Under the pieces are notes generated by a model. The model had not been told where the DNA came from and searched no databases. It saw only the letters and a program-made list of their open reading frames with translations. Of a DNA stretch of 25,291 bases, positions 539-15,775 are shown in pieces. Within the stretch, counting starts at the first letter, position 1; every line of letters begins with the position of its first letter. The translations under genes and the position numbers were made by a program. Source of the DNA: a virus; IMG/VR virus record IMGVR_UViG_3300025598_000159, positions 1 to 25,291 of that record; one strand, 5' to 3'.

Positions 539-1974
539 GCTTACAAGCAATTGCCCAACAAATCGCCGCACAAGGGCGCGGTAATGATACTCAACTGGTA
601 CACATGTCTACCAAAGAAGTGGCGGGCCTTCAAGCCTTGGCCGCTCAACACGGCATGCAGCTTCCCCAAAACCCACGCACAGGTTTGATTGAAGCCAATT
701 TCCTAGACTCGATTCTTCCCGCTGTGGCCGGTATTGGATTGATGGCTTTTGCGCCTGAATTGGCTCCGTTCCTTGGAGAAAGTGCGGCAGGTTTCTTGGG
801 CACTTCTACTGGCGCTGGGTTGGCTGTTGGTGGCGCAGATGCTTTGGCAACCGGCAGTCTGAAGAAAGGCCTCATGGCCGGACTGGGTGCGTATGGTGGC
901 GCGGAACTGGGCAGCGCTCTTGGTGCTGCTGGATCAACTACTCCCGCTGTCACGGGTATTTCTGCGGCCCCCACTGTGGGCGCTCCTGCTGGCGCAAGCG
1001 CTGGGTTACAAAATGCTGGGGATGTTTTCCGCGCCGCGCAGGGGATTCCTACTACCGCCACGACTGCGGCGGAATCTGGTTTGCAAAATGCTGGGGATGT
1101 TTTCCGTGCTGCGCAAGGCCTCCCTAGCGCTGCTCCGTCCGTAGCCCAAACAGTTGCCAGCTCTGGTATTACTACCACGCCTTCTGTGATTTCAGAAGCG
1201 CTGCCCGGTACGGCCACGCCTTCTCTCGGCAGCATGGGTAAAGGTCTGGCTAGCTTGGGTAATGGTGGCGGCTCTACATTCATGGACACTCTGGGAAGCA
1301 CAGGCCCGTTCAGCACGCCCGGATACAACCAGATGTTTAAAGCAGGGGCAACGCTTGCGCCTATCGTTGCGGATACTTCTGCAGCAGCGCCCAATAACGA
1401 AATTACTAAACTGCAAAACACCGTGCGCCCCTACACATTTACGCGCACCCCCACTGCTGCTCCCGGCGCTCCCGGCGACGCATCCAAATCCTATTTCAAT
1501 CAGTACTTTACTGCGCTGCCTACTTACCAAGCTGGCACAAATCAACCTTCCACGATCCCCACTTCGCAGCCTTTGGCTGGCGGCGGTTTGGCTACAGGCT
1601 TTCCTCGCGGCGACACCATGCACGGTACTATCGCAGGCTTGCGCGGCGTTGAGCGCTTGACTCGTATGGCAACCGGCGGTATCTCAAACTTGGGCAGCTA
1701 TTCTGATGGCGGGCAGCTGCTTCGCGGCCCCGGTGATGGCGTATCGGATAGCATCCCCGCACAGATTGGTCGGCACCAGCCAGCGCGTTTGGCCGAAGGT
1801 GAGTTTGTAGTCCCCGCTCGTATCGTATCTGAGTTGGGTAACGGTTCCACCAACGCTGGCGCTAAGCAGTTGTACTCTATGATTGACCGTATCCAAGCCG
1901 GACGCAAGAAGACCGTAGGCGGTAAACACGCCTATGCTGACGACACCAAAGCAGCCAGCCACTTGCCAGCATGA
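535..1974 (+). CDS. Gly/Ala-rich virion protein, likely internal or ejected, 479 aa
   Basis: Residues about 55-135 are hydrophobic and rich in Gly and Ala (ILPAVAGIGLMAFAPELAPF onward), long enough for two or three membrane-associating helices. A direct repeat of GLQNAGDVFRAAQG occurs twice (DNA 1003-1050 and 1078-1125). The middle is Ser/Thr/Pro/Gly-rich and probably flexible. The C-terminal block, about residues 398-460, contains GPGDGVSDSIPAQIG and then LAEGEFVVPARIVSELG. That module recurs in many phage virion proteins as I remember them, and looks like a conserved domain. Just before it is MATGGISNLGSYSDGG, a glycine element also seen in the two following large proteins. The start overlaps the upstream stop (ATGA) without a clear SD, so translation probably depends on coupling. 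An internal or ejected virion protein is inferred from composition and position. Confidence 0.75.
   Translation: MSLQAIAQQIAAQGRGNDTQLVHMSTKEVAGLQALAAQHGMQLPQNPRTGLIEANFLDSILPAVAGIGLMAFAPELAPFLGESAAGFLGTSTGAGLAVGGADALATGSLKKGLMAGLGAYGGAELGSALGAAGSTTPAVTGISAAPTVGAPAGASAGLQNAGDVFRAAQGIPTTATTAAESGLQNAGDVFRAAQGLPSAAPSVAQTVASSGITTTPSVISEALPGTATPSLGSMGKGLASLGNGGGSTFMDTLGSTGPFSTPGYNQMFKAGATLAPIVADTSAAAPNNEITKLQNTVRPYTFTRTPTAAPGAPGDASKSYFNQYFTALPTYQAGTNQPSTIPTSQPLAGGGLATGFPRGDTMHGTIAGLRGVERLTRMATGGISNLGSYSDGGQLLRGPGDGVSDSIPAQIGRHQPARLAEGEFVVPARIVSELGNGSTNAGAKQLYSMIDRIQAGRKKTVGGKHAYADDTKAASHLPA
1027..1125 (+). repeat. Imperfect direct repeat inside the 479-aa virion gene
   Basis: The coding segment for GLQNAGDVFRAAQG(I/L)P appears at about 1003-1050 and again at about 1078-1125, with a period of 75 bases. 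The copies differ mainly at synonymous third positions (for example cgcgccgcgcag against cgtgctgcgcaa). This suggests an old duplication kept for its amino acid sequence rather than a recent one. The listed range covers the second copy and the linker before it. Confidence 0.6.
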
Positions 1975-2378
1975 AGATTCAACACGTCCCATTAGAGTTC
2001 GTACAACAGGTATGGCCCTCGGTTGAGGGTTTTATCGCATCTGCTAATGAGCATGGCGGGGATGACTACACGCTAGATCAAATTCGACTTTTAGTTGGTT
2101 CAGGGCAGTGGTTGCTCTTGGTGGCGAGCGATGATGAGAATAAAATCCACGGTGCAGCAACTGTGTTTTTTCAAAACTACCCAAATCACCGCGTTGCGTT
2201 TATTACGTTTATTGGTGGCAGACTAATTAGCAACCAAGAAACTTTTGCGCAAATGGCGGGTATTTTGAAAACACACGGAGCTACAAAGATTCAAGGCGCA
2301 GCTCGCGAAGCGATTGCTAGGCTGTGGAAGCGATACGGATTTACTGAACGCCACGTGATCGTGGAGACTAGGATTTAA
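1971..2378 (+). CDS. GNAT-like acetyltransferase-fold protein, 135 aa
   Basis: The 135-residue protein has the alpha/beta alternation of the GNAT fold: an N-terminal helix (EFVQQVWPSVEGFIASA), paired strands (GQWLLLVASDD, HGAATVFFQN, RVAFITFIGG), a helix (QETFAQMAGILKTHG), and the closing pattern AIARLWKRYGFTERHVIVET. A helix ending KRYGF followed by a strand is typical of the GNAT C-terminus. The usual acetyl-CoA loop (Q/R-x-x-G-x-G/A) is not clear, so catalysis is uncertain. Small GNAT-like genes are often placed among virion genes of podovirus-like phages. This one may modify a virion or host protein, or be a structural reuse of the fold. It overlaps the previous stop as ATGA and ends two bases before the next ATG. 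Confidence 0.6.
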   Translation: MKIQHVPLEFVQQVWPSVEGFIASANEHGGDDYTLDQIRLLVGSGQWLLLVASDDENKIHGAATVFFQNYPNHRVAFITFIGGRLISNQETFAQMAGILKTHGATKIQGAAREAIARLWKRYGFTERHVIVETRI

Positions 2379-2379
2379 T

Positions 2380-4440
2380 ATGAGTTACTCCCGCCGACAA
2401 CTAGAAGCTTTTGGCGAACCGCTTGGCGATAGCGCTACACGAGTTAAGGTGGGCGGTCGTATCTACGGTGGCGGCGGCGGCGGTTCTTCCACGCCTTCTT
2501 CCATGCAAACAACCAGCGGTGTGCTGGCTCCCTATGCTGCCCAGTACGGCCAACAGTTGCTTGGTCAAGTATCCGCACTGACAAGCCAAGGGTATACCCC
2601 ATACCAAAGCGGTCAAGCACTACCCAACGGCCAAGTAGCGGGCTTCAGTGATTTACAAAACCAATCGTTCAACGCCGCCGGTAACATGGGCGTAGCTCCT
2701 CAAGTTGGCACAGCCAGCACAATGGCCGCGCTTTCTGGTCAAGGCATGATGGGATCTGCCGGTAACGCCATGAATTACGGGCAAATGGGCGCAAACTACG
2801 GCGCTCAGGGCGCTAACATTGGCACTCAAGGCGGCGGTATGTACGGCCAAATGGGGGCCAACTACGGAGCCCAAGGCGCTAATATCGGTCAGCAAGCAAC
2901 AAACTACGGCCAAAACATGGCTGGGCAAGCGGCTAACGCAGCTTACGGCTACGGAGCCCAAGGCGCTAATATTGGTCAGCAAGCGACAAACTACGGTCAG
3001 AACGTGGCTGGACAAGCTGCCAACCAAGCTTATGGTTACGGCGCTCAAGCTGCTGGCTTAGCCAACCAAGCCCAAGGATACGGTAACCAAGGCGCAAACT
3101 ACGGCGCTCAGGCTGCGCAACTCTCCAACACGGCTCTGGGCTACGGTCAAGGTGCATCCAACATTGGTATGCAAGCCCAACAACAAGCTCAGGGTTTGGG
3201 CCAAGGAATCAGTAACCAGTCGCAAAACTATGCCGCGCAGCAAGCGCAAGCTGGGCAAAACTACGCCAACCAAGCGACCAACCCCGGCGCTGTTAGCGCG
3301 TACATGAACCCCTATCTGCAGCAGTCTTTGGCTCCGCAGATGGCTTTGCTGGCTCAGCAACAAGGTCAACAACAAGCTGTCAACCAAGCCAAGGCTACTC
3401 AGTCCGGCGCATTTGGTGGTAGTCGTGCAGGAGTTGAAGATGCCCTGCAGAACCAGTCTAACCAGTTGGCTATGTCCAATTTGATCGGTCAAGGCTACAA
3501 CACCGCCTACAACCAAGCTTTGCAAAACATGCAGTTTGGAACTACGGCAGGTATGCAAGGTTTGTCTGGGGCTCAATCGGGGCTTGCGGGCGCGGGGCTT
3601 GGCGGTGGTCAGTTAGGTTTGTCGGGTGCTAACACTGCGCTTCAAGGTCAACAAGGCGCTTTGTCTGGAGTTGGTCAAGCGGGCTCTATGTACGGCCTCG
3701 GTATGCAGGGTGCGCAGTCTGGTCTGGCCGGACTGAACGCAGCCAACCAAGCTTATCAAACAGGTCTGTCTGGCGTGGGCCAAGGCATCAACGCAGGTCA
3801 GCTTGGCATGTCCGGCTACAACGCAGGTCTTAGCGGTAACGCACAAGGTCTGCAAGGCGCAGGGCAGGCTGTCAATGCTGGACAGCTCGGCATGTCTGGC
3901 TACAACACGGGCCTCACCGGAACCGCACAAGGCATCTCTGGCGCACAAGCTGGACTGCAGGGTGTTGGTCAACAACTGGCTGGAACCGCACAGGGTATCT
4001 CTGGCGCACAAGCAGGTCTCCAAGGCGTGGCTGGCGCACAAAGCGGCTACAGCGGAGCCAATACATCTGCGGCCAACTTGGGTAACTTGGGCAACACCCA
4101 GTACCAACAGCAGGTCGGCAACATTAACTTGCAGAACCAATTGGGCGCTCAACAGCAACAGTACCAACAAAACTTGGATACTACGGCTTACCAAAACTAC
4201 CTCAACCAGATGCAGTTGCCGTACCAAAACGCCAGCTTCTTCTTGAACGCGGTGAATGGTTTGCCCACGGGCGGTCAGAACACAAGCATATACTCCAACC
4301 CATCACCTATTTCAATTGCCGCTGGTTTAGGTACGGCCGCTATTGGTGCGAGCAAACTCACAGGCAAAAAAGGTGGTGGCGTAGTTGTCGGCATGAAGCA
4401 AGGCGGTTTGGCCGCGCTGGCTGTTTCAAAAATAGCGTAA
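2380..4440 (+). CDS. Gln/Gly/Ala/Asn/Tyr repeat virion protein, 686 aa
   Basis: After a short N-terminus (MSYSRRQLEAFGEPLG) and a Gly stretch, most of the protein is low-complexity repeats of Gly, Gln, Ala, Asn and Tyr. Residues about 133-225 carry YGQMGANYGAQ and GANIGQQATNYGQN units. Residues about 470-550 carry GQLGMSGYN and GTAQGISGAQAGLQG units. Between them, around residues 335-385, is a non-repetitive helical segment with QSGAFGGSRAGVEDALQNQS. This SGAFGGSR-type motif recurs, as I remember it, in phage proteins thought to be internal virion or tail-needle components. The C-terminus has KKGGGVVVGMKQGG. There are no cysteines in the repeat regions. An SD-like AGGAT precedes the ATG. A fibrous or disordered virion protein ejected with DNA is the best inference; no enzyme motif is visible. 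Confidence 0.75.
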   Translation: MSYSRRQLEAFGEPLGDSATRVKVGGRIYGGGGGGSSTPSSMQTTSGVLAPYAAQYGQQLLGQVSALTSQGYTPYQSGQALPNGQVAGFSDLQNQSFNAAGNMGVAPQVGTASTMAALSGQGMMGSAGNAMNYGQMGANYGAQGANIGTQGGGMYGQMGANYGAQGANIGQQATNYGQNMAGQAANAAYGYGAQGANIGQQATNYGQNVAGQAANQAYGYGAQAAGLANQAQGYGNQGANYGAQAAQLSNTALGYGQGASNIGMQAQQQAQGLGQGISNQSQNYAAQQAQAGQNYANQATNPGAVSAYMNPYLQQSLAPQMALLAQQQGQQQAVNQAKATQSGAFGGSRAGVEDALQNQSNQLAMSNLIGQGYNTAYNQALQNMQFGTTAGMQGLSGAQSGLAGAGLGGGQLGLSGANTALQGQQGALSGVGQAGSMYGLGMQGAQSGLAGLNAANQAYQTGLSGVGQGINAGQLGMSGYNAGLSGNAQGLQGAGQAVNAGQLGMSGYNTGLTGTAQGISGAQAGLQGVGQQLAGTAQGISGAQAGLQGVAGAQSGYSGANTSAANLGNLGNTQYQQQVGNINLQNQLGAQQQQYQQNLDTTAYQNYLNQMQLPYQNASFFLNAVNGLPTGGQNTSIYSNPSPISIAAGLGTAAIGASKLTGKKGGGVVVGMKQGGLAALAVSKIA
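2776..2889 (+). repeat. 66-base coding tandem repeat
   Basis: One full 66-base unit (2776-2841, 22 residues starting YGQMGANYGAQ) is followed by a second copy that matches for 16 residues (2842-2889) before diverging into the 87-base repeat. The copies differ at several third positions. Confidence 0.8.
2875..3048 (+). repeat. 87-base coding tandem repeat, two units
   Basis: Units at 2875-2961 and 2962-3048 each encode 29 residues starting GANIGQQATNYGQN. The two protein units differ at two positions (M/V, A/Q). The DNA differs mostly at synonymous sites, so the protein period is under selection or the duplication is not recent. Confidence 0.85.
3787..4029 (+). repeat. 84-base then 63-base coding repeats
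   Basis: Two 28-residue units (3787-3870 and 3871-3954) share (I/V)NAGQLGMSGYN. They run into two 21-residue units (3919-3981, and 3982 to about 4029) sharing GTAQGISGAQAGLQGV. This second repeat block has a different period from the one at 2776-3048, so the gene holds at least three independent repeat families. Confidence 0.8.
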
Positions 4441-4449
4441 GGACGAATC

Positions 4450-6141
4450 ATGGATACACAAAACCCCGCTATGGGCAATGCCCAGCCTAGCCCCGGTGTT
4501 ACGCAGCAAGACATTTCTGGTCTTCGGGAAATGATGATGGGCATGTCGTTGCCCCAGTTGCAGCAATTTGCGCAGCAACACATGAACAACCCAAACGGCG
4601 GCATCATCGTCGGCATGGCCTCTCAGATCGCCAACGCTAAGAAATCTGCGCAAGCTCCGCAACCGCCTCAAGGTTCTGTTGCTCAACAAGCTGTGGCAGG
4701 TATCGCGCCTCAACCGCAGGGCATGCCTCAAAGAGCGCAGCCCATGCAAGCCCCCCAAATGCCCCAAACCAATTCTTTGGGTTTGCCGGAAGAACAAGGC
4801 ATTGGTGTTTTGCCCGCTAAGAATCTTGAAAATTTAGCCAATGCCAAAGGCGGCATTATTGGCTACGCTGGCGGTGGTCGGATTCCTAGTTTTGCTGGGC
4901 GCGAGGACAGCTATGTTGGTGGCCCCTACTCTGTATCTGAAATCTTTAGCCCGTTGTTTAGCGCTAACACACGCAACAAATACGGCGTTAATGCCGCTGT
5001 TACCCCAGCTGCTGGAACCAATCCAACGGATTTAAATACGGGAATCCCCAGCACATTAACAATGCCTATGCAGAGCGGTTCTGGGCCAACTCAAATTCCT
5101 ACAGGGTTTAATAGTACATACGACCCCAACGCAAAACCAACGCCCGCACCGGCCCCCACCGCCGGTGCACCGACTGCGTCTCCGGCAGCTACACCGGCTG
5201 CTACCCCCGCAGCAACACCTAACGCCAACGCAGGTATTGCTGGTTTACCAAATGCACAGAACATCATGCAGCAGTTTGGGCTTTCAAAACCCCAGTCCGT
5301 GGCGGATAACTTGGCTATGCTTAAACAGCAAGCACCTAACCCAGAAACTGAACACACAATGAGTCTTGGCGAAAACGTCCAAGAGCTCAAGAAACAAGCG
5401 CTCGCTATGGGCATTGATCCTGACAACAGCAAAGCGTTTGAGCGCTTGGACAAAATGGATGCAAAAGCGCAGGAACTGCTCGATCGTAAACAAGCACTGT
5501 CCATTATTGAGGGTGGCTTGGGTATGATTAAATCCGGTAATCCGTTCATGGCTATTGCCGAGGGCGCTGGAAAAGGCATTAAATCCTACGGCGACGCGAT
5601 GGATCAGGCACAACAAACACAAATGAAGTTGGCCGAGTCCCGCATCAGCTTGGACAACGCCAAGAACGCCATGAACATGGGTCTGTTCAGCAAGGCTGTG
5701 GACAACCAAGAGAACGCACAAAAACGAAACTTGGAGTATTTGATGAGTCAAAACCGCGACGCCGCGGCCATGACAACTGCCCAAGGACAAAACGCTGCGC
5801 ACTTGGCAGGTACAGTAATTGCTGGTCAGTATGGATATGCAGGTCAAAAACTGTCTGCTGATACGCAAAAAGAAATCTGGGCCGAACGTGCTAAAACCAG
5901 CCTTAGTCGTGCCGAAATTATGGCCCAAGCGCACAACCACCCGAACTATGCACAGTTTGTCACCACAGCGCAAAAAGAATTATCCGGAGGAACTCCTGCA
6001 CAAATTGATGCACGTGCCCGGGACTTAGTGGCACAAGACGCTATGTTCCGTCAGATGTATAGTGGGATAGGAGGAATGGGTATGGGAGGTGGGTTTGTTT
6101 CCGCACTCCCCGGTGGCGCTCAAGTAAGAACTACGCCATAA
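4450..6141 (+). CDS. Virion protein with helical C-terminal half, 563 aa, function unknown
   Basis: The N-terminal part is Gln/Met/Pro-rich (GMSLPQLQQFAQQHMNNP) with a GGIIVGM patch near residue 50. Around residues 133-146 is AKGGIIGYAGGGRI, a hydrophobic glycine motif like those of the two large proteins upstream. A Pro/Ala/Thr linker lies at about residues 229-262. Residues 300-480 are mostly predicted helix with charged heptad-like stretches (ELKKQALAMGIDP, MDAKAQELLDRKQALSI) and a Gly-rich hinge (GKGIKSYGDAMDQAQQ). The C-terminus is GMGMGGGFVSALPGG. SD TAAGGACG sits just upstream of the ATG, overlapping the previous stop. No enzyme motif is seen. Its position between the repeat protein and the giant polyvalent protein supports an internal or ejected virion protein. 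Confidence 0.75.
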   Translation: MDTQNPAMGNAQPSPGVTQQDISGLREMMMGMSLPQLQQFAQQHMNNPNGGIIVGMASQIANAKKSAQAPQPPQGSVAQQAVAGIAPQPQGMPQRAQPMQAPQMPQTNSLGLPEEQGIGVLPAKNLENLANAKGGIIGYAGGGRIPSFAGREDSYVGGPYSVSEIFSPLFSANTRNKYGVNAAVTPAAGTNPTDLNTGIPSTLTMPMQSGSGPTQIPTGFNSTYDPNAKPTPAPAPTAGAPTASPAATPAATPAATPNANAGIAGLPNAQNIMQQFGLSKPQSVADNLAMLKQQAPNPETEHTMSLGENVQELKKQALAMGIDPDNSKAFERLDKMDAKAQELLDRKQALSIIEGGLGMIKSGNPFMAIAEGAGKGIKSYGDAMDQAQQTQMKLAESRISLDNAKNAMNMGLFSKAVDNQENAQKRNLEYLMSQNRDAAAMTTAQGQNAAHLAGTVIAGQYGYAGQKLSADTQKEIWAERAKTSLSRAEIMAQAHNHPNYAQFVTTAQKELSGGTPAQIDARARDLVAQDAMFRQMYSGIGGMGMGGGFVSALPGGAQVRTTP

Positions 6142-6206
6142 TATAGGCAACGCGCTGACAGATCATCGCCCGTAGCGCAGGTGAACCCTAACTGAAGAGC
6201 AAATCC

Positions 6207-9200
6207 ATGCCATACGTACGACTGCCAGACGGAACCTATTATCAAGCGCCGGAAGGCATGGATTATCCAACAGCCGTACAAACGGCTATGAAGGCTTTCC
6301 CCGATGCGTTCGGTATCAAGCCGCCCCCTCCACCCCCTGCACCTGCTCCTTCTACATTCGGAAGTGAGTTGGGACGTGGCTTCTCTGAGAGCTTATCCAA
6401 TTTAGGAACTGCTGCCGGTTCTATTTTTGGCGCAAACAGGGCGGCAGAGAGTGCAGTCAAAGAACAAGAAGCGTATGACAAAACCCACGCCGCTTCTACA
6501 GACATTCTGAAAGACATCGAAGAAGCCTACAAGAAACCGGGTGGCGGCGTTGGGTCTGCCATCATGGCAGGTATTGGGGATATTCCGTCCGTAGTGGGCG
6601 GTATGCTACCTGTGTTGGGTGAGTACGGCGCTGCATCTAGGCTGGGGGCTATAGCTGGTACTGCGGTTTCTCCCGGCCTTGGTACTACTATTGGCGCTAT
6701 TGGCGCTCCTTTGGCGCTTGCATTTGCGGAACACTACGGCTCCAACATCAAAGCGCAAGCTGCCGAGCAGATGCAAAAAGGCGAACCTGTGGATGTGCAC
6801 ACAGGCAAGGCGCTGGCATACGCCGCTCCCGAAGCTGTGCTGGATGCTGTTCAGCCATTAACGCTAGGTAAGACTGTTGCCGGAGCTTTGTTTGGTGAAG
6901 GCGTCAAGAACTTGCTGAAGCGCGGGGCGGAAGAAGGCGCAGAAAAAGTAGCTAACCGAACTCTTGGGCAAGCCGTTGCCGCGGGTACAGCGCATGCTAC
7001 CGTTACGGGCGTTCCGTTGATGGTGACTCAAACTGCGTTGCAACGTGCGCAATTAGGGAAATCCCTAGTAGACGAAGATGCGTTCCATGACTACGGCAAC
7101 GCCATGCTGGCGGCTATTTTGGCCTCTCCTGTCGGTGCATATGACGGCTATCTTGGCCGGGGCGCAGCGCGTGAAGCTGTAGAACGTGCCCGCCTTGAAG
7201 CTGCTGAGAAAGCAGCTAAAGAACAAGAAGCCGCACAGTTGGCTACCGAAGCCACCGCTGAACAAGCACCTTCACCATTTTCTGCTGGGCCACAAGGCGA
7301 ACTGCCGGGCATGGAAACAGCGGCAACCGAAGCGCCTCCACCAGTACGTCCTAAAGAATCTGAAGAACCTTTCGAACCTTCTTTAGACTACAACCGCCAA
7401 GCCAAGTTGCTTACCCAGCAACTAGACGATTTGAAGGCGCAAGCCACACAGACAACTGACCCACGTCAGATTTTGCAATTGGCCGCGCAGCATGACCAAG
7501 TTGAAGCTGCGTTGGAAAAGGCTAAAGAAGCATCTGTTAAACAAGAAAAAGCTCCAGAAGTTCAATTGGCCGAAGCACAAAAGGCGCTGGACAAAGCCAA
7601 AGAGCAAGGAGACATGAAGGCTGCAGCCAAGCATGCCCAAAAGATTCTGGACTTGCAAGAAGTGGGCGGCACGCAGCAAACGCTTGATCTTGGCAAACCA
7701 CAAAAACTTGTACAAGAACCTGTACCAATTATTCAAAAAGTTCCGCTGATCGAAGCAAAGAGTGCAACGCGTGAGGCTAATCAACAACGCCTAAATACGG
7801 TTGAGGAAGAAGAGCAAGCCGCCCGCGAGCAGCAGGCTGCGGCTGAAGCGCAGTATACGCAGGACATTGAGAACATTAAAAACCGCACGGTGCCCAACCA
7901 GTTTGAGCTGTTCTCGCCTGAAGAAGCGCCTATAACTAAAGAACCGCAACAACCGCAACAGCCACAAGCTACCGAAGTTGACCTCAACGCCGACTATGGA
8001 CAGCAAGCTAGGGCATTGCAACAACGCTCTAGCGATCTTAAGAATTTAATTAAAACTGTGCAAGGTCCCCGTGCACAGGATCCGTTGATCGAACAGAAGC
8101 GCCAAATAGATGAAGCGCTTAGCAAAGCACAAGGACTGGCGGCAACTACCACCAGCCCAGAGGAACGCCGCACTGGTCTCGATCTGAACACTCTGGATTT
8201 GTTTACTCCAGAGAATATGCGAAACACGGATTACCAAAATTTGGATCCGGCTACTCGCGCCAAGATTGAACAACAAAGGTTAATGGAGACTTTGGGCAAT
8301 CTGGAGGGCAAACGCGTTACCCGTGCAGTGATAGAAGATGAAGACAATAAACGCATGCTGCGCGCTGGTACGCACCCCAATGAATACAAACAACGTATTT
8401 GGGACGAGCAAGGTGAACAAGCGTATGACTACCAAATGGTTATGGATGAGATCGAGCGCATTAAGGCGCAGATTAATAATCCACAAGGCAACGCTAAACG
8501 CTCTTTATATACCAAGTTAGAAGATTTAGCGACTGAACACGAGTCTCTTTCGCGTTCTTTAGAACAAGGCGAACCAACGCCAAGTCAAAGATCGTATACC
8601 CAGCGCAAACTGGATACGCTTAAGAAAGAATACGACCGTATTGTTAACACTTACGTAGCCCCAGCCCGTGAAAAAATTGCTGGATTGATGCGCAGTTTGT
8701 ATACGGTAGAAGACGTGGGTATTCCCACCGAAATAGAGAAGAAAAACAGAGACGTTAAAGAAATTATTGCTGAAGCCAAACAAGCTCGGACTAATAAACT
8801 GCGCGACATAAAAGCACAGTATGACGAAATCAAGGCAAGCCTAAAAGAACTTGGACCAAAAGAACAAGCTGAAGCCAGAAAAGAAATGGCTAAGCTGAAA
8901 AAAGAACACGACGAGTTGGCATTTGCTCCTGATCCATTAGCGCCCGAAGTGTTAGAGAAAACAGCGCCAGATAAAAAAGAAGAAATTACCGAAGCGATCA
9001 AGAGTTATTACGATGCGCTTGAACGGGCAAATCAAAAACCCGAGATGTCACGCCCAGCCAAACGTGCACAGCGCATGAATGCGGGCGAGACTAAGTACGA
9101 AGTCGAACGTACCCAAGACGTCATAAACATGGCTTTTGAATTGGGCACCCAAGAAGAAGGGTACAAACAAGCTTTTGCTGAAGTTGATCGTAGACTCAAA

Positions 9201-12200
9201 GCGCTTACTGACCGCTATGGTGCAGACGATACCGCTGTTAAACAGTACAAGGAAGATGCCGGTAAAGACCTGCTGGAGTTAGCCATTAAGCTAGGTAAAA
9301 CCACACCAGAGTACAAAGAAACTGTTAAGCAACGCATGGCTGACTACAACCAAGCGTTGCAAGAATCTGGGCCATTAAAACCTGCAAGCAAGCGCACAGA
9401 GCAAGTTACCCGCAAAGCAGTTAATGCACCACGAAAACTGAAAACAACTTTGCCGGGCTATACACCCCCAGAAGAAAAAGGTTTGCCCACTACGTACCGA
9501 GAAGAAACTCGTACAGATCTAAGCGAAGACAATCAAAACCGCCTTGCCAAAGGCGACTTGACTGGCGTGTTGGAAGACTTGGCAACAACCAGCGCTAATC
9601 CTTTAATTCGTGAAAAAGCGCGGATGCTGTTGGAGCATAACAAAGAGACCAACGTCAAAATTGTTTCTAATCTTAAGCACGAAGGCAAGAGTGTTCCTGC
9701 GCTGTACGAACCCAGCACCAATACGATTAAATTCCATATTGATGGCATGAATGAGGAAGACCTTGTTCACGAAGCCACCCACGCCGCTACTGCGCGTTTG
9801 CTGGATACTCCCGCCAAAGACTTAAGCACGTATCAACGCTATGCTCGTAATGAACTTGAAGGCTTATATAACAAGCTGCAAGCTGACGGCATACTGACCG
9901 GCGAATACGCCGCCAAGAACCTTAAAGAGTTTGCCGCTGAACTTACATCTAACCAAGGCTTGCGCAAAAAACTAAATGGCCTAGAGTGGCAAGGCCAGTC
10001 AATGCTGCGCCGAATCATGAACTCCATCATGAAGTTCTTTGGGTTTAACCCACGCGATGCGTTGGCTGCTGCCGACCATTATGTGGACAAGATGCGTGCT
10101 GACTCTGTGGCCTATCGCGCCGGAGAATCTGCGTCTGTGTTCCGTGGAGAAACTAAATACGCGCCCGGCTTAGAACGCGCCGCAGCTGTTGCCAACAAAA
10201 CGATTGCCACCCAAAAGCCTTTGACCGAGCGCTATGACCGGGATGCACTAGGCCGCGGCGGTCTTGAGTTTATGACCAAAATGGTCGACCAGTTTGCGCC
10301 TCTGGTGCGGGCTTCGCGTTTGATGGATTCGTTGGCCGGTACACAGATGATGTACTTCCTGCGTATGTCTGCCCAGCGCTCGAACTTGCTTGGTGCTGTC
10401 TTGGCTCACGGCTCACTGGAGCGCAAAGAGTTTACCCGTGCGGACGGCAAAAAAGAATTCTTGTATCAAGCCAAGCCCGGTGCTAGCCTTGTCAACGTCA
10501 ACAAACTGCTGTCTAAAGCCAACGACATTACTGGCGGCGGACGACAAACCGATGCGCTGTTTTCCTTGTACAGCGTAGCTAAACGTGCTGAGAGCGTTGG
10601 CCTTGCCAAGCTCCAGTATGAGGATCTGACGCAGCGTGAATTGAACGACGCCATGCAAGACATCCGCAACAAGCCCGGGCTTGAGCAGATTTTTAAAGAC
10701 GCACATGCAGAGTATCAGAAGTTCAATACCAACATGGTTAACTTCGCTGTGCAGACAGGCTACCTATCCAAAGAGCTTGCCGCCAAGATGCTGGCAAACA
10801 AAGACTACGTTCCTTACTACCGCGAAAAGAACGGTGAAGTCAGCCTCATGATGGGCGGCGAAGAGATCGGCCGCATCGGTAATATCAAAGCACAACCCTA
10901 CTTGCATGAACTTGTGGGCGGCAACCAACGCATCTTGGACTTCAATACCGCCGCTGTGCGTAATGCCAATATGTTGCTGGAGATGGGTTTGCGTAACCAA
11001 GCTGCGCAGTCTGCCGCCTTCAACCTACAAGAAATTGGCATGGCTAAGATCGGCAAAGGTTCTGGCAAGGGAACCAACCTCTTTAACTTTAAGCGTGACG
11101 GCGAAGACTACCACGCACTTGTTCAAGACAGCAAAGACGTTCCAGCCGACTTGCTTGTCAAGGGTATGGAAGGTATCCCCGTTCAGACCAGTTCTTTGCT
11201 GCACTTAATGGGTATGCCTAGCCGACTGCTGCGTCAGATGTTTGTGGCTAATCCTATTTCTGCGGCGCGTATTTTGTTCAAGGATACGATCTCCTCGGCC
11301 ATGACCTCTGGCTCAAACCTAGACACTGTGGGCAAAGCGTTGCGTACTGTTGGGGATAACCTGATGGAAAAACGCGGCATCTCCGGCGGTGAAGTGTTCC
11401 AAGGCTTGCCTGACGACATGGCTAACATCCTGCGCGAAGTGCAAACCGGTAAGCCCGGATGGGAAACTCTGATGGCTAAAGCCCACGTGCTGCACGCCAA
11501 AGCCGATGCGCTGACACGCCAGATTCGCTACGAGAGCTACAAGAAGCAAGGCCTGTCCGATATGGAAGCCAGCTACATGGCGCTGGAGTCCATGAACTTT
11601 ACACGTCGCGGCATCTCGCCAAGTATCCACGTACTCAACACGCTGAATCCTTTCATCAACTCGCAAATTCAAGGCATCAACACGTTGGTTCAATCCCTCC
11701 GCGGCACGATGCCTATGAACGAAAAGTTGAAGATCCGCGAGAAGATTATTCAGCGCGGTATGTTGGTGGCCGGAGCCACCATGCTGTATGCCACCATGAT
11801 GCAAGACAAGGAAGCGTACAAAAACGCAACACCCGACCAGAAGTTCAACAACTGGTTCCTCCCGCTGGATACATTTGGCATCAGCGAACCTCTGCGTGTA
11901 CCAATCCCGTTTGAAGCCGGTATGCTTTTCAAAGCCGTACCCGAGATGCTGGTCAGCGCCATGCACGGTAACAACGACGAAGCGGCTGAAGGTCTCAAGC
12001 AAGTGGTTCAAAAGATGATTCCCGGCGGCGACACCTACGGTATCCCTCAAGCACTGCGCCCGGGTATCGAAGTTGGTATGGGCAAGTCGTTCTACACTGG
12101 CCGCGACCTCGAATCTCGTCATGAGCAATCATTGCAAGCTGGCTACCGTAGCCGCCCTACAACTTCAGGCTTTGCAGATGCACTGGGCCAAGAGCTAAAT

Positions 12201-12704
12201 GTTTCGCCAATTAAGATTGACCATTTGATTCAAGGCTACACAGGCAGCTTGGGTCTAGCTATTACGCAAATGGCTTCGTCAATTGTCTTTGGCAAACAAA
12301 AGCAAGAGCAAATAGCGCCCAATTTGTCACAGATGCCTTTGATTGGCAGTTCGTTCCAGCCTCAAGACGCTGGCGCTATTGTTGAGCAGACATACAAAGT
12401 CATGAACGATGCCGCCCAAGTTAAGGCTACTTACACGGATATGCTGAACAAAGGACGCTCCGATGCTGCCGAAGCGTACAAAAACAAAAACGCCGATGAG
12501 TTTAATAAGGCGTCAATGTCGTCCCGCTTCACCAGCTCAATGAGTCAGTTCACCAAGGAAATGCAAGCGATTCAGACGCAGGTGGCGACGGGTCAGATAA
12601 CTCCGGAGGAAGGCCGTCAAAAGAGAAATGATTTGGTTGCTCGACGGACGGCTTATGCACAAACCTTGTTGGCACAGGCTTCCGGTAGAACAGCACCCCA
12701 ATAA
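6207..12704 (+). CDS. Giant polyvalent virion protein with HExxH peptidase motif and LPD38-like region, 2165 aa
   Basis: The 2165-residue protein begins MPYVRLPDGTYYQAPEG, followed by a poly-Pro stretch (about 38-46). Residues about 110-180 form a Gly/Ala hydrophobic region (VGSAIMAGIGDIPSVVGGML) that could insert in a membrane. Residues about 310-950 are highly charged, Gln/Glu/Lys/Ala-rich and probably coiled coil or disordered. A gluzincin-type zinc site is visible: H1188-E1189-A-T-H1192, with a candidate third ligand in KEFAAEL (E1241 or E1245). From about residue 1670 (SRLLRQMFVANPISAARIL) through FINSQIQGINTL and FNNWFLPLDTFG to about 1900, the sequence resembles large polyvalent protein-associated domain LPD38. 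Polyvalent proteins are multidomain phage and plasmid proteins thought to be delivered with the DNA. The start follows a weak GAAGAG. The last 155 bases overlap a gene on the other strand. Confidence 0.75.
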   Translation: MPYVRLPDGTYYQAPEGMDYPTAVQTAMKAFPDAFGIKPPPPPPAPAPSTFGSELGRGFSESLSNLGTAAGSIFGANRAAESAVKEQEAYDKTHAASTDILKDIEEAYKKPGGGVGSAIMAGIGDIPSVVGGMLPVLGEYGAASRLGAIAGTAVSPGLGTTIGAIGAPLALAFAEHYGSNIKAQAAEQMQKGEPVDVHTGKALAYAAPEAVLDAVQPLTLGKTVAGALFGEGVKNLLKRGAEEGAEKVANRTLGQAVAAGTAHATVTGVPLMVTQTALQRAQLGKSLVDEDAFHDYGNAMLAAILASPVGAYDGYLGRGAAREAVERARLEAAEKAAKEQEAAQLATEATAEQAPSPFSAGPQGELPGMETAATEAPPPVRPKESEEPFEPSLDYNRQAKLLTQQLDDLKAQATQTTDPRQILQLAAQHDQVEAALEKAKEASVKQEKAPEVQLAEAQKALDKAKEQGDMKAAAKHAQKILDLQEVGGTQQTLDLGKPQKLVQEPVPIIQKVPLIEAKSATREANQQRLNTVEEEEQAAREQQAAAEAQYTQDIENIKNRTVPNQFELFSPEEAPITKEPQQPQQPQATEVDLNADYGQQARALQQRSSDLKNLIKTVQGPRAQDPLIEQKRQIDEALSKAQGLAATTTSPEERRTGLDLNTLDLFTPENMRNTDYQNLDPATRAKIEQQRLMETLGNLEGKRVTRAVIEDEDNKRMLRAGTHPNEYKQRIWDEQGEQAYDYQMVMDEIERIKAQINNPQGNAKRSLYTKLEDLATEHESLSRSLEQGEPTPSQRSYTQRKLDTLKKEYDRIVNTYVAPAREKIAGLMRSLYTVEDVGIPTEIEKKNRDVKEIIAEAKQARTNKLRDIKAQYDEIKASLKELGPKEQAEARKEMAKLKKEHDELAFAPDPLAPEVLEKTAPDKKEEITEAIKSYYDALERANQKPEMSRPAKRAQRMNAGETKYEVERTQDVINMAFELGTQEEGYKQAFAEVDRRLKALTDRYGADDTAVKQYKEDAGKDLLELAIKLGKTTPEYKETVKQRMADYNQALQESGPLKPASKRTEQVTRKAVNAPRKLKTTLPGYTPPEEKGLPTTYREETRTDLSEDNQNRLAKGDLTGVLEDLATTSANPLIREKARMLLEHNKETNVKIVSNLKHEGKSVPALYEPSTNTIKFHIDGMNEEDLVHEATHAATARLLDTPAKDLSTYQRYARNELEGLYNKLQADGILTGEYAAKNLKEFAAELTSNQGLRKKLNGLEWQGQSMLRRIMNSIMKFFGFNPRDALAAADHYVDKMRADSVAYRAGESASVFRGETKYAPGLERAAAVANKTIATQKPLTERYDRDALGRGGLEFMTKMVDQFAPLVRASRLMDSLAGTQMMYFLRMSAQRSNLLGAVLAHGSLERKEFTRADGKKEFLYQAKPGASLVNVNKLLSKANDITGGGRQTDALFSLYSVAKRAESVGLAKLQYEDLTQRELNDAMQDIRNKPGLEQIFKDAHAEYQKFNTNMVNFAVQTGYLSKELAAKMLANKDYVPYYREKNGEVSLMMGGEEIGRIGNIKAQPYLHELVGGNQRILDFNTAAVRNANMLLEMGLRNQAAQSAAFNLQEIGMAKIGKGSGKGTNLFNFKRDGEDYHALVQDSKDVPADLLVKGMEGIPVQTSSLLHLMGMPSRLLRQMFVANPISAARILFKDTISSAMTSGSNLDTVGKALRTVGDNLMEKRGISGGEVFQGLPDDMANILREVQTGKPGWETLMAKAHVLHAKADALTRQIRYESYKKQGLSDMEASYMALESMNFTRRGISPSIHVLNTLNPFINSQIQGINTLVQSLRGTMPMNEKLKIREKIIQRGMLVAGATMLYATMMQDKEAYKNATPDQKFNNWFLPLDTFGISEPLRVPIPFEAGMLFKAVPEMLVSAMHGNNDEAAEGLKQVVQKMIPGGDTYGIPQALRPGIEVGMGKSFYTGRDLESRHEQSLQAGYRSRPTTSGFADALGQELNVSPIKIDHLIQGYTGSLGLAITQMASSIVFGKQKQEQIAPNLSQMPLIGSSFQPQDAGAIVEQTYKVMNDAAQVKATYTDMLNKGRSDAAEAYKNKNADEFNKASMSSRFTSSMSQFTKEMQAIQTQVATGQITPEEGRQKRNDLVARRTAYAQTLLAQASGRTAPQ

Positions 12705-12867
12705 GGCCGTCCTTGATGCCGATGGTAGCGCCCGCATTAAATACGCGGGCGTTCAGTGCTTGATTGAGTCCCTCCAGCCGTAACGGCTCGGGGTCGAGGC
12801 AGGGGATGAAGAACCCCTGCCCCCGCTCAACTTTGTCCCACGGCCAACGCACCTGTAACTTTTTCAA
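12550..12867 (-). CDS. Small phage protein (GQGFFIPCLD type), TTG start, antisense to the giant gene's 3' end
   Basis: A 105-codon frame starts at TTG (12865-12867), with the SD GAGAGGA five bases upstream inside the end of the primase-helicase gene. The first 60 residues look like a compact domain: WPWDKVERGQGFFIPCLD, then a helix, then NARVFNAGATIGIKDG and LIGVLFYRKP. I recall similar short 'GxGFFVPCLD...GVxFYR' proteins as unannotated genes in other phages, but this is from memory. The remaining 45 residues are Pro/Ser-rich and lie antisense to the last 155 bases of the 2165-residue gene, so this tail may be a mere read-through to the first stop. It fills the 12705-12826 stretch that would otherwise look non-coding. 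A GTG at 12850-12852 is an alternative start but lacks an SD. Function unknown. Confidence 0.6.
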   Translation of the reverse strand: MKKLQVRWPWDKVERGQGFFIPCLDPEPLRLEGLNQALNARVFNAGATIGIKDGLIGVLFYRKPVPTRFVHKPSVEQPNHFSFDGLPPELSDPSPPASESLAFPW

Positions 12868-15775
12868 GCTCGTCCTCTCGTCTAGAGATTTTCATGGCAT
12901 TAACTCGCATCGGCGGGCCGCTGGTTTTAGACAGCAAGTCCTTCTTGTGTGCATACGAGACCATGAACTTAGCCTCAAGTTGTTTCTTGAGTGTGGCATA
13001 GCCAAAGCTATGGTTGGCGCAATACGTTTTAAGTAAGCGCTCCTCGATGTACAGGTCAACGTAACCCGGCGATACGCCGTGTTCAATGCGCCCCATCACC
13101 CCGTTGCGGGTAGTATGTCGGTCAATCGCCGTGTCGCCTCCCATAGTGGCAAACGGCCCAGCTTTGTCACCAAAGCGCACAATGACAAACTTGCCGTAGT
13201 ACTCTTGGATGAACCCGTTAAGGATGTCCTCGGCGTCTCGCTTGCCCACTTTCATTGCTGAGCGGCTGATTTCAACTACCTTGCGACAGCTCTCCAGCAA
13301 CGGCTCGACAGGCACGTCTACGATACCCGCATACTTACGACTAAAGTGAATAGCCGCGCTCGCCATGCAAGCAACACCCGCCATCCAGAAGCGCTCATCG
13401 TTAGGCGCGCCGTAGTACTTATACATGCGCGTGATGGTCTCAGGCACAAAGCTTGCCAGTTCATCCACGTTGTTGACCATGTAACGCACCCAAGCATCTC
13501 CGGCCACGGCGTAGTTCTTCTGGATTGACTTGATGATCTCCACCTCTTCGGCAGTCCACTCAAGCTTCTCGTCCATGACCCACTCCAGCAAGCGGCGCAG
13601 TTCACCTTCCGAAGAGTGCTTGCGAGCGCCAGTCATGTAGTCAACCGCGTGGGTATTGGATGAAAAGATTGCAACGGCTTGCCAAATCGACAGGTTCAAA
13701 CGCTCTTTGTTAGCGCCGGACTCCATGCGTTCTTTGCCACGCCCTTCGCTGATTGTCATGGTCATGCCGGGAAACCACTCGAAATCTTCCCGAGCCTTGG
13801 TTGTAATTTCATCGCTGATGAATGGGCCGCTGTGCAGCAAACCCAAACGCTGTTGCATTGCCACAGGAGATGTGCCCGAGCCAGTGCGGTAGTGGATAGG
13901 GTGACCCCAGATGGAGGCCGCACCGTCTAGTGCCAAAGACTTACCAGTGCCTGACTCGGTTGAGCAGCAGTGGATAGTCAAGCCGTACAGACCAGTGAAA
14001 CGCATCAGCGGTGAGCCAGCGCCCATGAAGATGACCGCCAAGTGATCCCACATTTCGCGAGCCACCAGCATCTTGATGAACTTAGCCCAAGTCTCCAGAT
14101 CGCCAGTGATCTGCGTGTTGCTCGTCAGGTTCTCCAGCCCCGGCATGGGGATGCGAACCGGCTCTTGGCCGCGCTTGTACACCATATTAGCGTGCACGAA
14201 GCTGTCGTCTTTCTGCCAGCCGTAGTGCAGGGGCACTCGGATTGGTACGCGCTCGTCACTCATCTTAGCCACAGACGCACGAACGTAGTCAGCCAAATTC
14301 TTGTCGTTGCCAGAGCCAAACGCAGACAGGATGTTCTGTGCAGCTAGTACCTTCACAGTCTCGTCCTTACTCACCATAGCCTTTTGGGGCATGATGATCT
14401 CCTGCGTACCGTAGGTGCGGCAAGCCAGCAAGTGAACCACGTGTTCACCGTCAATGTTCAGAATGTCTACAGGAAACAGGTCAAACGGCAGAATCATGAC
14501 TTGGCGTTTTGTCTTGTTGCCGTTGGCGTCCTCGTCTTCCTTCTCTTGGAAGATGCCGCCGCGCTGACCATAGGCGTAGCCTCTGGGTGGCTCGGGGCGT
14601 AGGATTTGTTCTGTTTCACCGTCTTCGACTTGAACCTCAATAACTGTAGGTTCGGTGACGGTCGCCACTTCGCGGCCCAGCGCCAGTGGGTTGGTGATCT
14701 TGCCCCAGTGTACACACGATGTACACACACCGGGGTTCTCCGAGTCAAACTTGGTGCAGGGATACGGCCCTTTGATCTCCGACAGCTTTAGGTTCATGCG
14801 GTCTTCATCGTAGGGATGCAAGCCGCTCAGCCATACTGCGGCTCTAGCGCCGTCCTCACACTTCTGCGCAATACTAAGGTGTGCCCTCCACAACGGCTCC
14901 ATGCCGTCATCGCTGGCGTTCTCAACGTAGTACCTGAGTTGCTCGCAGCCGCGCCCTTCCTTGGTGGCCTTGTAAATCTTGCCAAACTTGGTGACGCTGT
15001 TCTCGAACAACTTAATGGCGGTCGGGTCTGCACTTGGGCGGTGGCCCGGCAGATCAATCGACTTACCCGCAGGGGGTTTCACCTCGTAGGCTGTACCTAC
15101 TAGGTGCTTGGTGATGAGCGCCTTGATGTCCTCAAAGTCAAAATGATCGCCCTCGTTTTTGAACACCACGCTGGTTTGCTCACGGACTTTCTTCTTGCCC
15201 TTGACGCCGTTGTTCACGGTATCAGGTACGCGAAGGACACGCGAAGCGTCTCCAGTTACGGTTGGGTCTATGGCGAGCTTCTTTTGAAAGCACAGGCGCT
15301 TGAACGCCTCGGCCACAGGACGCCACTCGTCAATGTCCACCGTCTCTTTGAACGGCCAGTAAGCGTGTACGCCGCCGCCAGATGCGACCATCCAAGGGTT
15401 GCCCAGATCGGACAACCCTATTTCATCAGCAAACTGCATGATGGCATGGGCGGCAGCTTTAGCGGACGCATAAGCTTTTTTAGATATCTCACCCGTTGCT
15501 GGGTCGGGGATATCCTTTGGGTGGTTGCAGTCAACGTCTACGGCTATGCACTTGACATGGCGCACATTGTCCTTGACTCGGGTGGCTTCGTCTCCAAAAG
15601 TCCCGAGTGCAAAGTAAATGTCATAACCGTTTCGTTTCCACAAGTCCAGCTTGGGGAGTGCTTCCTCAAGCTGGTCTACAAACACGTGCTCTTTTCTTCG
15701 GGTAAGTTCTGTGAAGCAGTACTTCCCGTTTCCCGGGGGCGGCAAAACCTCCGCTAGAAACTCAAGCGGTTGCAT
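12827..15775 (-). CDS. Primase-helicase: AEP-type primase N-terminus, DUF927-like ATPase C-terminus, 982 aa
   Basis: The likely role is priming and unwinding at the phage fork. The N-terminal 250 residues carry archaeo-eukaryotic primase features: AVDVDCN with D80 and D82 as metal ligands, SGGGVHAYWPF with H137, and GDASRVLRVPDTVNNG, the third conserved block. A short Cys set, CTKFDSENPGVCTSC, in the middle could bind zinc. The C-terminal half has a Walker A loop, ESGTGKSLAL (K612), followed by GPFISDEITTK as a Walker B-like acidic pair and IFSSNTHAVDYM as a possible sensor. This fits the DUF927 type of helicase domain fused to phage primases. The ATG follows AAAGGTAACCTT. It is the last large gene of the replication block, and its 3' end overlaps the small TTG-start gene by 41 bases. 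Confidence 0.85.
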   Translation of the reverse strand: MQPLEFLAEVLPPPGNGKYCFTELTRRKEHVFVDQLEEALPKLDLWKRNGYDIYFALGTFGDEATRVKDNVRHVKCIAVDVDCNHPKDIPDPATGEISKKAYASAKAAAHAIMQFADEIGLSDLGNPWMVASGGGVHAYWPFKETVDIDEWRPVAEAFKRLCFQKKLAIDPTVTGDASRVLRVPDTVNNGVKGKKKVREQTSVVFKNEGDHFDFEDIKALITKHLVGTAYEVKPPAGKSIDLPGHRPSADPTAIKLFENSVTKFGKIYKATKEGRGCEQLRYYVENASDDGMEPLWRAHLSIAQKCEDGARAAVWLSGLHPYDEDRMNLKLSEIKGPYPCTKFDSENPGVCTSCVHWGKITNPLALGREVATVTEPTVIEVQVEDGETEQILRPEPPRGYAYGQRGGIFQEKEDEDANGNKTKRQVMILPFDLFPVDILNIDGEHVVHLLACRTYGTQEIIMPQKAMVSKDETVKVLAAQNILSAFGSGNDKNLADYVRASVAKMSDERVPIRVPLHYGWQKDDSFVHANMVYKRGQEPVRIPMPGLENLTSNTQITGDLETWAKFIKMLVAREMWDHLAVIFMGAGSPLMRFTGLYGLTIHCCSTESGTGKSLALDGAASIWGHPIHYRTGSGTSPVAMQQRLGLLHSGPFISDEITTKAREDFEWFPGMTMTISEGRGKERMESGANKERLNLSIWQAVAIFSSNTHAVDYMTGARKHSSEGELRRLLEWVMDEKLEWTAEEVEIIKSIQKNYAVAGDAWVRYMVNNVDELASFVPETITRMYKYYGAPNDERFWMAGVACMASAAIHFSRKYAGIVDVPVEPLLESCRKVVEISRSAMKVGKRDAEDILNGFIQEYYGKFVIVRFGDKAGPFATMGGDTAIDRHTTRNGVMGRIEHGVSPGYVDLYIEERLLKTYCANHSFGYATLKKQLEAKFMVSYAHKKDLLSKTSGPPMRVNAMKISRREDELEKVTGALAVGQS

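Follow-up and report, generated by a model that had tools for sequence, protein, structure and literature searches.

A giant LPD38 protein in a viral genome fragment: a predicted ejection protein carrying an exchangeable zinc-metallopeptidase domain

Polyvalent proteins that combine an LPD38 domain with a metallopeptidase (MPTase), including an HExxxH form, have been described by Iyer et al. in 2017 (PMC5512222), and the role of metallopeptidases in injected phage giants is a question that was raised in that year. Gp69 of JC1, at 4515 residues, combines a lytic transglycosylase-like domain (residues 80-192) with LPD3 and LPD38, and has been identified by mass spectrometry, with 51 unique peptides, in CsCl-purified virions (PMC9144972). 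Among giant ejection proteins, gp50 of N4 possesses an N-terminal domain that was shown to insert into nanodiscs (PMC12633501) and a C1 domain in which an HExxH motif has already been noted (PMC5512222; PMC12633501). The present analysis concerns the 25,291-base IMG/VR virus record IMGVR_UViG_3300025598_000159, the whole of which is referred to here as the window, and within it a gene (6207..12704, + strand) for a 2165-residue protein, hereafter the giant, which its open reading frame, Pfam match and homologs mark as a predicted ejection or polyvalent protein with a zinc-metallopeptidase (zincin) domain and LPD38. The giant is a member of the known phage-type polyvalent proteins of the LPD38 class, and we consider it, with a probability of about 0.72, to be an internal virion protein of that class that would be packaged in the head and ejected with the DNA, with a zinc peptidase aboard. 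A protease would thus probably be delivered into the host as infection starts.

The gene is one uninterrupted frame of 2165 codons, preceded 7 nt 5' of its ATG by a Shine-Dalgarno-like GAAGAG (6194..6199, + strand), which confirms the single 2165-residue polypeptide that an earlier note, made from the DNA letters alone, had described. Three unrelated parts are joined in this one chain, namely a conserved N-terminal module, the zincin and a C-terminal LPD38 block. The LPD38-like C-terminal region of the earlier note proved to be a clear match to Pfam LPD38 (PF18857) at residues 1869-2037 (11811..12317, + strand; E=3.6e-30, 105.9 bits against a cut-off of 27). This match lies within a conserved block of approximately 780 residues (residues ~1379-2161; 10341..12689, + strand), which is the best conserved part of the protein and is ~70% identical to those of the relatives L001, L002 and L104. 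The structural model of the block is moderate, with a predicted local distance difference test (pLDDT) score of 72 and a predicted template modeling (pTM) score of 0.58, and the block found no match in the PDB by sequence or by model fold; no function is therefore claimed for LPD38. A relationship of LPD38 to the C2 domain of N4 gp50, to T7 gp16 or to phiKMV-like proteins was also considered and set aside, as there was no significant match to any of these.

The zincin, a gluzincin-type metallopeptidase domain at residues 1105-1310 (9519..10136, + strand), is supported by conservation, profile matches and a structural model. Within it, the HEATH motif at residues 1188-1192 (9768..9782, + strand) is predicted from conservation to supply two zinc-ligand histidines and the catalytic glutamate. 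A protein of the giant's length and composition is expected to contain 0.028 HExxH motifs by chance, and the motif by itself is therefore suggestive at most, conservation being what decides. The first relatives, viral contigs with 44-53% overall identity, were later joined by one more, and the full-length giant as a query against genome contigs found no relative. A profile of the HEATH region then yielded 80 loci, of which 52 sequences were left after non-redundancy at 80%. H1188, E1189, H1192, F1242 and E1245 (9939..9941, + strand) are invariant in these 52 homologs, and E1241 (9927..9929, + strand) is a glutamate in 51. The homolog search used two peptides, one with HExxH and one with the downstream glutamates, and each subset was checked at the residues of the other peptide: homologs found through the HExxH peptide alone keep E1241 in 37 of 38 cases and E1245 in 38 of 38, and those found through the glutamate peptide alone keep HExxH in all 10. 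Conservation of the zinc site is therefore no artefact of the pattern search. Judged by this conservation, the zinc site of the giant is taken to be real, with H1188, H1192 and E1241 as the predicted ligands and E1189 as the predicted general base of an active-looking peptidase. The zinc site and candidate glutamate of the earlier note accordingly stand, the glutamate being best assigned to E1241.

Structure prediction agrees with this assignment of the domain. An AlphaFold2 model of residues 1105-1330, built on an alignment of 51 sequences that drew on viral loci only, has a pLDDT of about 90 or more across most of its first 140 residues and a zincin-like order of elements: three strands, a helix with HExxH (model residues 79-96) and a later helix (model residues 135-144) carrying the glutamates, E1241 among them. 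In a Foldseek search of the PDB, the top match was anthrax lethal factor (probability 0.97, E=0.03) and the fourth was the N4 virion RNA polymerase (probability 0.90, E=0.2). Anthrax lethal factor and other gluzincins are thus the best PDB fold matches to the model, although the scores are weak, the resemblance is one of fold and the delivery route of lethal factor is unrelated. Against viral models, Foldseek E-values reached down to 3e-8, and phage structural proteins, an 'internal protein D' and large polyvalent proteins were among the matches. Profile searches and structure prediction, which the earlier note had suggested as a check, thus found both LPD38 and a gluzincin-type domain in the giant.

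Comparison of the zincin profile with PDB chains connected the domain to ejection proteins with solved structures. Matches were obtained to an internal virion protein (9sfn, E=7e-13), to the PhiM1 tetrameric ejection protein gp48 (8vb2, E=2e-12), to a 'gp10' (23sg, E=5e-7) and to a virion RNA polymerase (11fw, E=2e-4). By tblastn of the matched stretches, 9sfn corresponds to phiKMV-like gp37 and 23sg to Drulisvirus-like internal virion proteins; 11fw is identified as N4 gp50 by the motif that the two have in common and by the sequence around it. The N4 C1 domain with its HExxH also aligned with the zincin by hhalign (probability 92.7, E=4e-7), while T7 gp16 gave no match to the zincin profile. 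Among ten ejection proteins, N4 included, H, E, H and the equivalent of E1241 are kept in 10 of 10, whereas E1245, invariant in the LPD38-linked zincin family, is replaced in 9 of 10. E1241 is therefore the probable third zinc ligand.

These tetrameric ejection proteins of phages like phiKMV (gp37), PhiM1 (gp48) and Drulisvirus (gp10-type) have a homologous zincin with H, E, H and the E1241 equivalent, but are shorter (about 1240-1420 residues), lack the LPD38 block and have the zincin motif near residues 380-560; their gene is preceded by a gp15-like one that has a lysozyme motif, just as an SLT gene precedes that of the window's relatives. N4 gp50 (Schitoviridae; 11fw, 9pnr) resembles the predicted giant in being a very large, ejected protein with a membrane-inserting N-terminal domain and a homologous HExxH C1 domain, but has an RNA polymerase aboard and a C2 domain without similarity to LPD38; polymerase families were absent from the giant in Pfam and PHROGs scans. 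T7 gp16 is likewise a large internal core protein that is ejected with the DNA, but has an SLT domain, no zincin by profile and no similarity to LPD38.

The region of PhiM1 gp48 that matches is, we think, this zincin. It was called endolysin/exotransglycosidase-like by its authors and lies within the tetramer domain modeled in the capsid (PMC11440229); the paper never uses the terms protease, peptidase or metallo-, and names zinc just for nanoparticles (PMC11440229). Zincin-bearing internal virion proteins are encoded at L183:3367-7158 (PhiM1 gp48), L101:4759-8772 (LKD16 gp37) and L102:4894-8613 (F19), and in L187 and L188, and many T7-like internal virion proteins whose usual annotation is 'with endolysin domain' or 'exotransglycosylase' carry an HExxH...E zincin, with hundreds of tblastn record matches. 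The capsid position of the PhiM1 region (PMC11440229), together with variation of E1245 and its surroundings among the T7-like homologs, could indicate that the zincin is now mainly structural, as a part of the ejectosome ring rather than an active enzyme. However, the four predicted zinc and catalytic residues, which would be needless for a structure, are kept in all ten ejection proteins and in essentially all 52 homologs, and we consider a structural role unlikely. The zincin is now linked to ejection and internal virion proteins whose structures are already solved, PhiM1 gp48 included, so that zinc can be looked for in existing cryo-electron microscopy maps; its function is also accessible in tractable laboratory phages such as N4 on E. 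coli K-12.

That the giant would be packaged and ejected is well supported, because its zincin is homologous to that of solved ejection proteins and because the JC1 LPD38 giant is found in virions. The comparison with JC1 gp69 covered LPD38, which it shares with the giant, and its location in virions. LPD38/zincin polyvalent proteins in general, including the Bcep22/JC1-like DarB homologs, have in common with the giant LPD38, the zincin, the giant multidomain layout and the placement among virion genes, but differ from it in that the giant is without a recognizable nucleic-acid or nucleotide enzyme in its middle and without an N-terminal SLT fusion. The giant is the final gene of the + strand block, and the replication genes downstream are on the opposite strand. 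The placement in a virion block that the earlier note had read is borne out through the relatives, in whose equivalent block head and tail families occur and in which an SLT transglycosylase gene lies directly upstream of the giant (L002, L003 and L014); the window's own neighbors match no named family in family scans, and the giant's upstream neighbors gave a single weak PHROGs match (phrog_22172, function unknown, E=0.0086). It could be argued that the giant is not in the virion at all, but is an early or intracellular protein, as its virion placement in this phage is drawn from homology. Its position at the end of the + strand block, the head, tail and SLT genes of the relatives' block, the separation from the replication genes by strand and the presence of JC1 gp69 in virions all speak against such a protein, and we regard it as very improbable. 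As to SLT as a general partner of the giant, this was rejected, as it was seen in 5 of 33 records, none of which is known to be complete.

An unbiased search with the C-terminal block alone was then used to examine the pairing of LPD38 with the peptidase, the sample being the 80 loci that resemble the window most. Of the non-redundant proteins in it, 39 extended far enough upstream to be retained. A zincin motif was present in 39 of 39, as HExxH (the window type) in 14 and as HExxxH in 25, against a chance expectation of 0.012 per protein, and was always N-terminal to LPD38, often by about 190 residues. In the HExxxH type, H, E, H, one glycine and two glutamates are kept in 37 of 37 sequences, and the two types are remotely related (hhalign probability 93.5 across 46 columns). 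The type differs even between close relatives: in L001, a sister of the window giant with a C-terminal block 70% identical, HEAAGH stands in place of HEATH, and L116 and L137 are 78% identical in the N-terminal module, 37% in the middle, 21% in the zincin and 84% in the LPD38 block. Sister pairs with like ends and differing zincin type comprise L116/L137, L139/L163, L110/L168 and window/L001. In a tree built from the C-terminal block, at least 15 changes of type are required, 11 of them forced by starred (well-supported) branches, and the mean with shuffled labels is 15.3, which shows that zincin type is without phylogenetic signal on the LPD38 tree. The tree was built by a quick method with a simple model, and contigs from metagenomes are sometimes chimeric; chimeras could hardly account for the exchange pattern, given its frequency across many samples. 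The differing types in sister proteins point to recombination inside the gene. Within the sampled branch, the ends of the protein are conserved, and the peptidase between them is a cassette that is obligate yet can be exchanged. Neither this pairing nor the explicit homology to ejection proteins of the phiKMV, PhiM1 and Drulisvirus types was found in the cited literature, although both may have been published elsewhere.

Exchange of type between otherwise like proteins suggests a substrate that is host-facing or specific to the cassette. One possibility is that the ejected zincin acts on the host as an effector, cutting a host protein involved in defense, the envelope or regulation, and that the frequent exchange of the zincin reflects an arms race. 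The absence of phylogenetic signal, with at least 11 changes forced, is consistent with this, as are the likewise hypervariable adjoining middle and the occurrence of other effector-like domains at such positions in relatives (InPase, ddrB-ParB, methyltransferase). However, no host target is known, and the presence of the zincin in all sampled members points to a housekeeping step no less than to an optional weapon; we place a host target just short of even odds. Alternatively, the zincin may process the giant itself, either before it is packaged, inside the head or once it has entered the cell, thereby freeing its modules. Self-processing has been proposed for polyvalent proteins, with P1 DdrB cited as processed before packaging (PMC5512222), and would suit a zincin that is in cis in every sampled protein at a recurrent distance ahead of LPD38. 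However, the N4 virion RNA polymerase is packaged unprocessed (PMC5512222), and the swapping of types between proteins whose ends are 78-84% identical fits poorly with a fixed site in the frame, unless the site moves with the cassette. Weighed together, a host target appears somewhat likelier than self-processing, itself a substantial possibility, and the remainder falls to a structural or other role. A broader proposal, that LPD38 proteins are a delivery chassis with constant ends for an obligate, freely swapped protease of HExxH or HExxxH type, under diversifying selection and aimed at host proteins in the first minute of infection, and that the same zincin is an overlooked ejectosome enzyme in phiKMV-, PhiM1- and Drulisvirus-like phages, is speculative, and the odds lean against it.

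The N-terminal module (residues 1-345; 6207..7241, + strand) is Gly/Ala-rich, mildly hydrophobic and conserved across the family, and found no convincing match in the PDB or Pfam. Residues 100-345 contain 34% Gly+Ala with a slightly positive hydropathy, and no 19-residue window reaches 1.6, the maximum being 1.59 at residues 119-137; the N-terminal domain of N4 gp50 has a similar hydropathy, with a maximum of 1.47. Of the membrane-prone, hydrophobic Gly/Ala N-terminus proposed in the earlier note, the composition thus holds and the module is conserved, while the hydrophobicity is mild and makes this the weakest element. Between module and zincin, the middle (residues 346-1104; 7242..9518, + strand) is variable and, as had been described, charged, with 33% DEKR at residues 345-1100; judged by its composition, it would be helical. 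It contains QFELF (residues 565-569; 7899..7913, + strand), an instance of Q-x-[DE]-L-F, which is enriched here across the family: upstream of the LPD38 block, 61 proteins have 21 occurrences against 2.1 in shuffled sequences, with none in the C-terminal block. The motif is similar to bacterial sliding-clamp-binding motifs, and could serve for docking onto the clamp of the host. One relative of 3326 residues (L014:5318-15298) has an insertion of ~700 residues (residues ~1770-2430) between the zincin and the LPD38 block, with a CAGTSWCTG motif inside it.

These observations allow a model to be proposed for the giant as an ejected internal virion protein. We infer that it would be packaged in this phage and ejected through the tail, and that its zincin would bind zinc and be active on a substrate. 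The N-terminal module and the LPD38 block would form a constant frame, probably for packaging, membrane passage and anchoring, and the variable middle, including the zinc metallopeptidase, would be the cargo between these constant ends; once ejected, the peptidase could act at the envelope or in the cytoplasm. Several points weigh against this model. For this phage itself, virion presence and activity are predictions drawn from homologs, and the LPD38 block is unrelated by sequence or fold to the known ejection proteins compared. Each of the PDB fold matches is weak, with none at E<=0.001, and by its hydropathy the N-terminus lacks transmembrane segments of the classical kind, a reading that was therefore rejected. 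Domain scans found no SLT in the neighboring gene (4450..6141, + strand), at whose position close relatives have an SLT transglycosylase gene, nor in the giant or the rest of the record. The pairing is also not universal, as the distant LPD38-region relative of Bacillus phage Pony has neither HExxH nor HExxxH; given this and a sample of the nearest 80 loci, 'always' is therefore limited to the window's branch. Finally, the window is a 25-kb piece of a genome, probably a fragment.

The giant itself gave no match in a PHROGs scan. Beyond it, the - strand gene at 12827-15775 encodes a 982-residue protein with PHROGs matches that include DNA primase/helicase (phrog_25314, E=2e-89; phrog_8841, E=8e-24). 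In the + strand block, a gene for 135 residues (1971..2378) is kept in relatives at 51-52% identity; its product is GNAT acetyltransferase-like by eye, and a Pfam search gave no convincing match. The 686-residue protein that follows (2380-4440) has many YGAQGANIGQQ-like repeats, and its likeness to the syntenic proteins of L002 and L003 is confined to the last ~140 residues. A 479-residue protein (535-1974) has relatives of 1409 residues in L002 (2170-6399) and 955 residues in L003, and PT-HINT is matched weakly, short of the cut-off (E=2.6e-4), within the extra part of the L002 copy.

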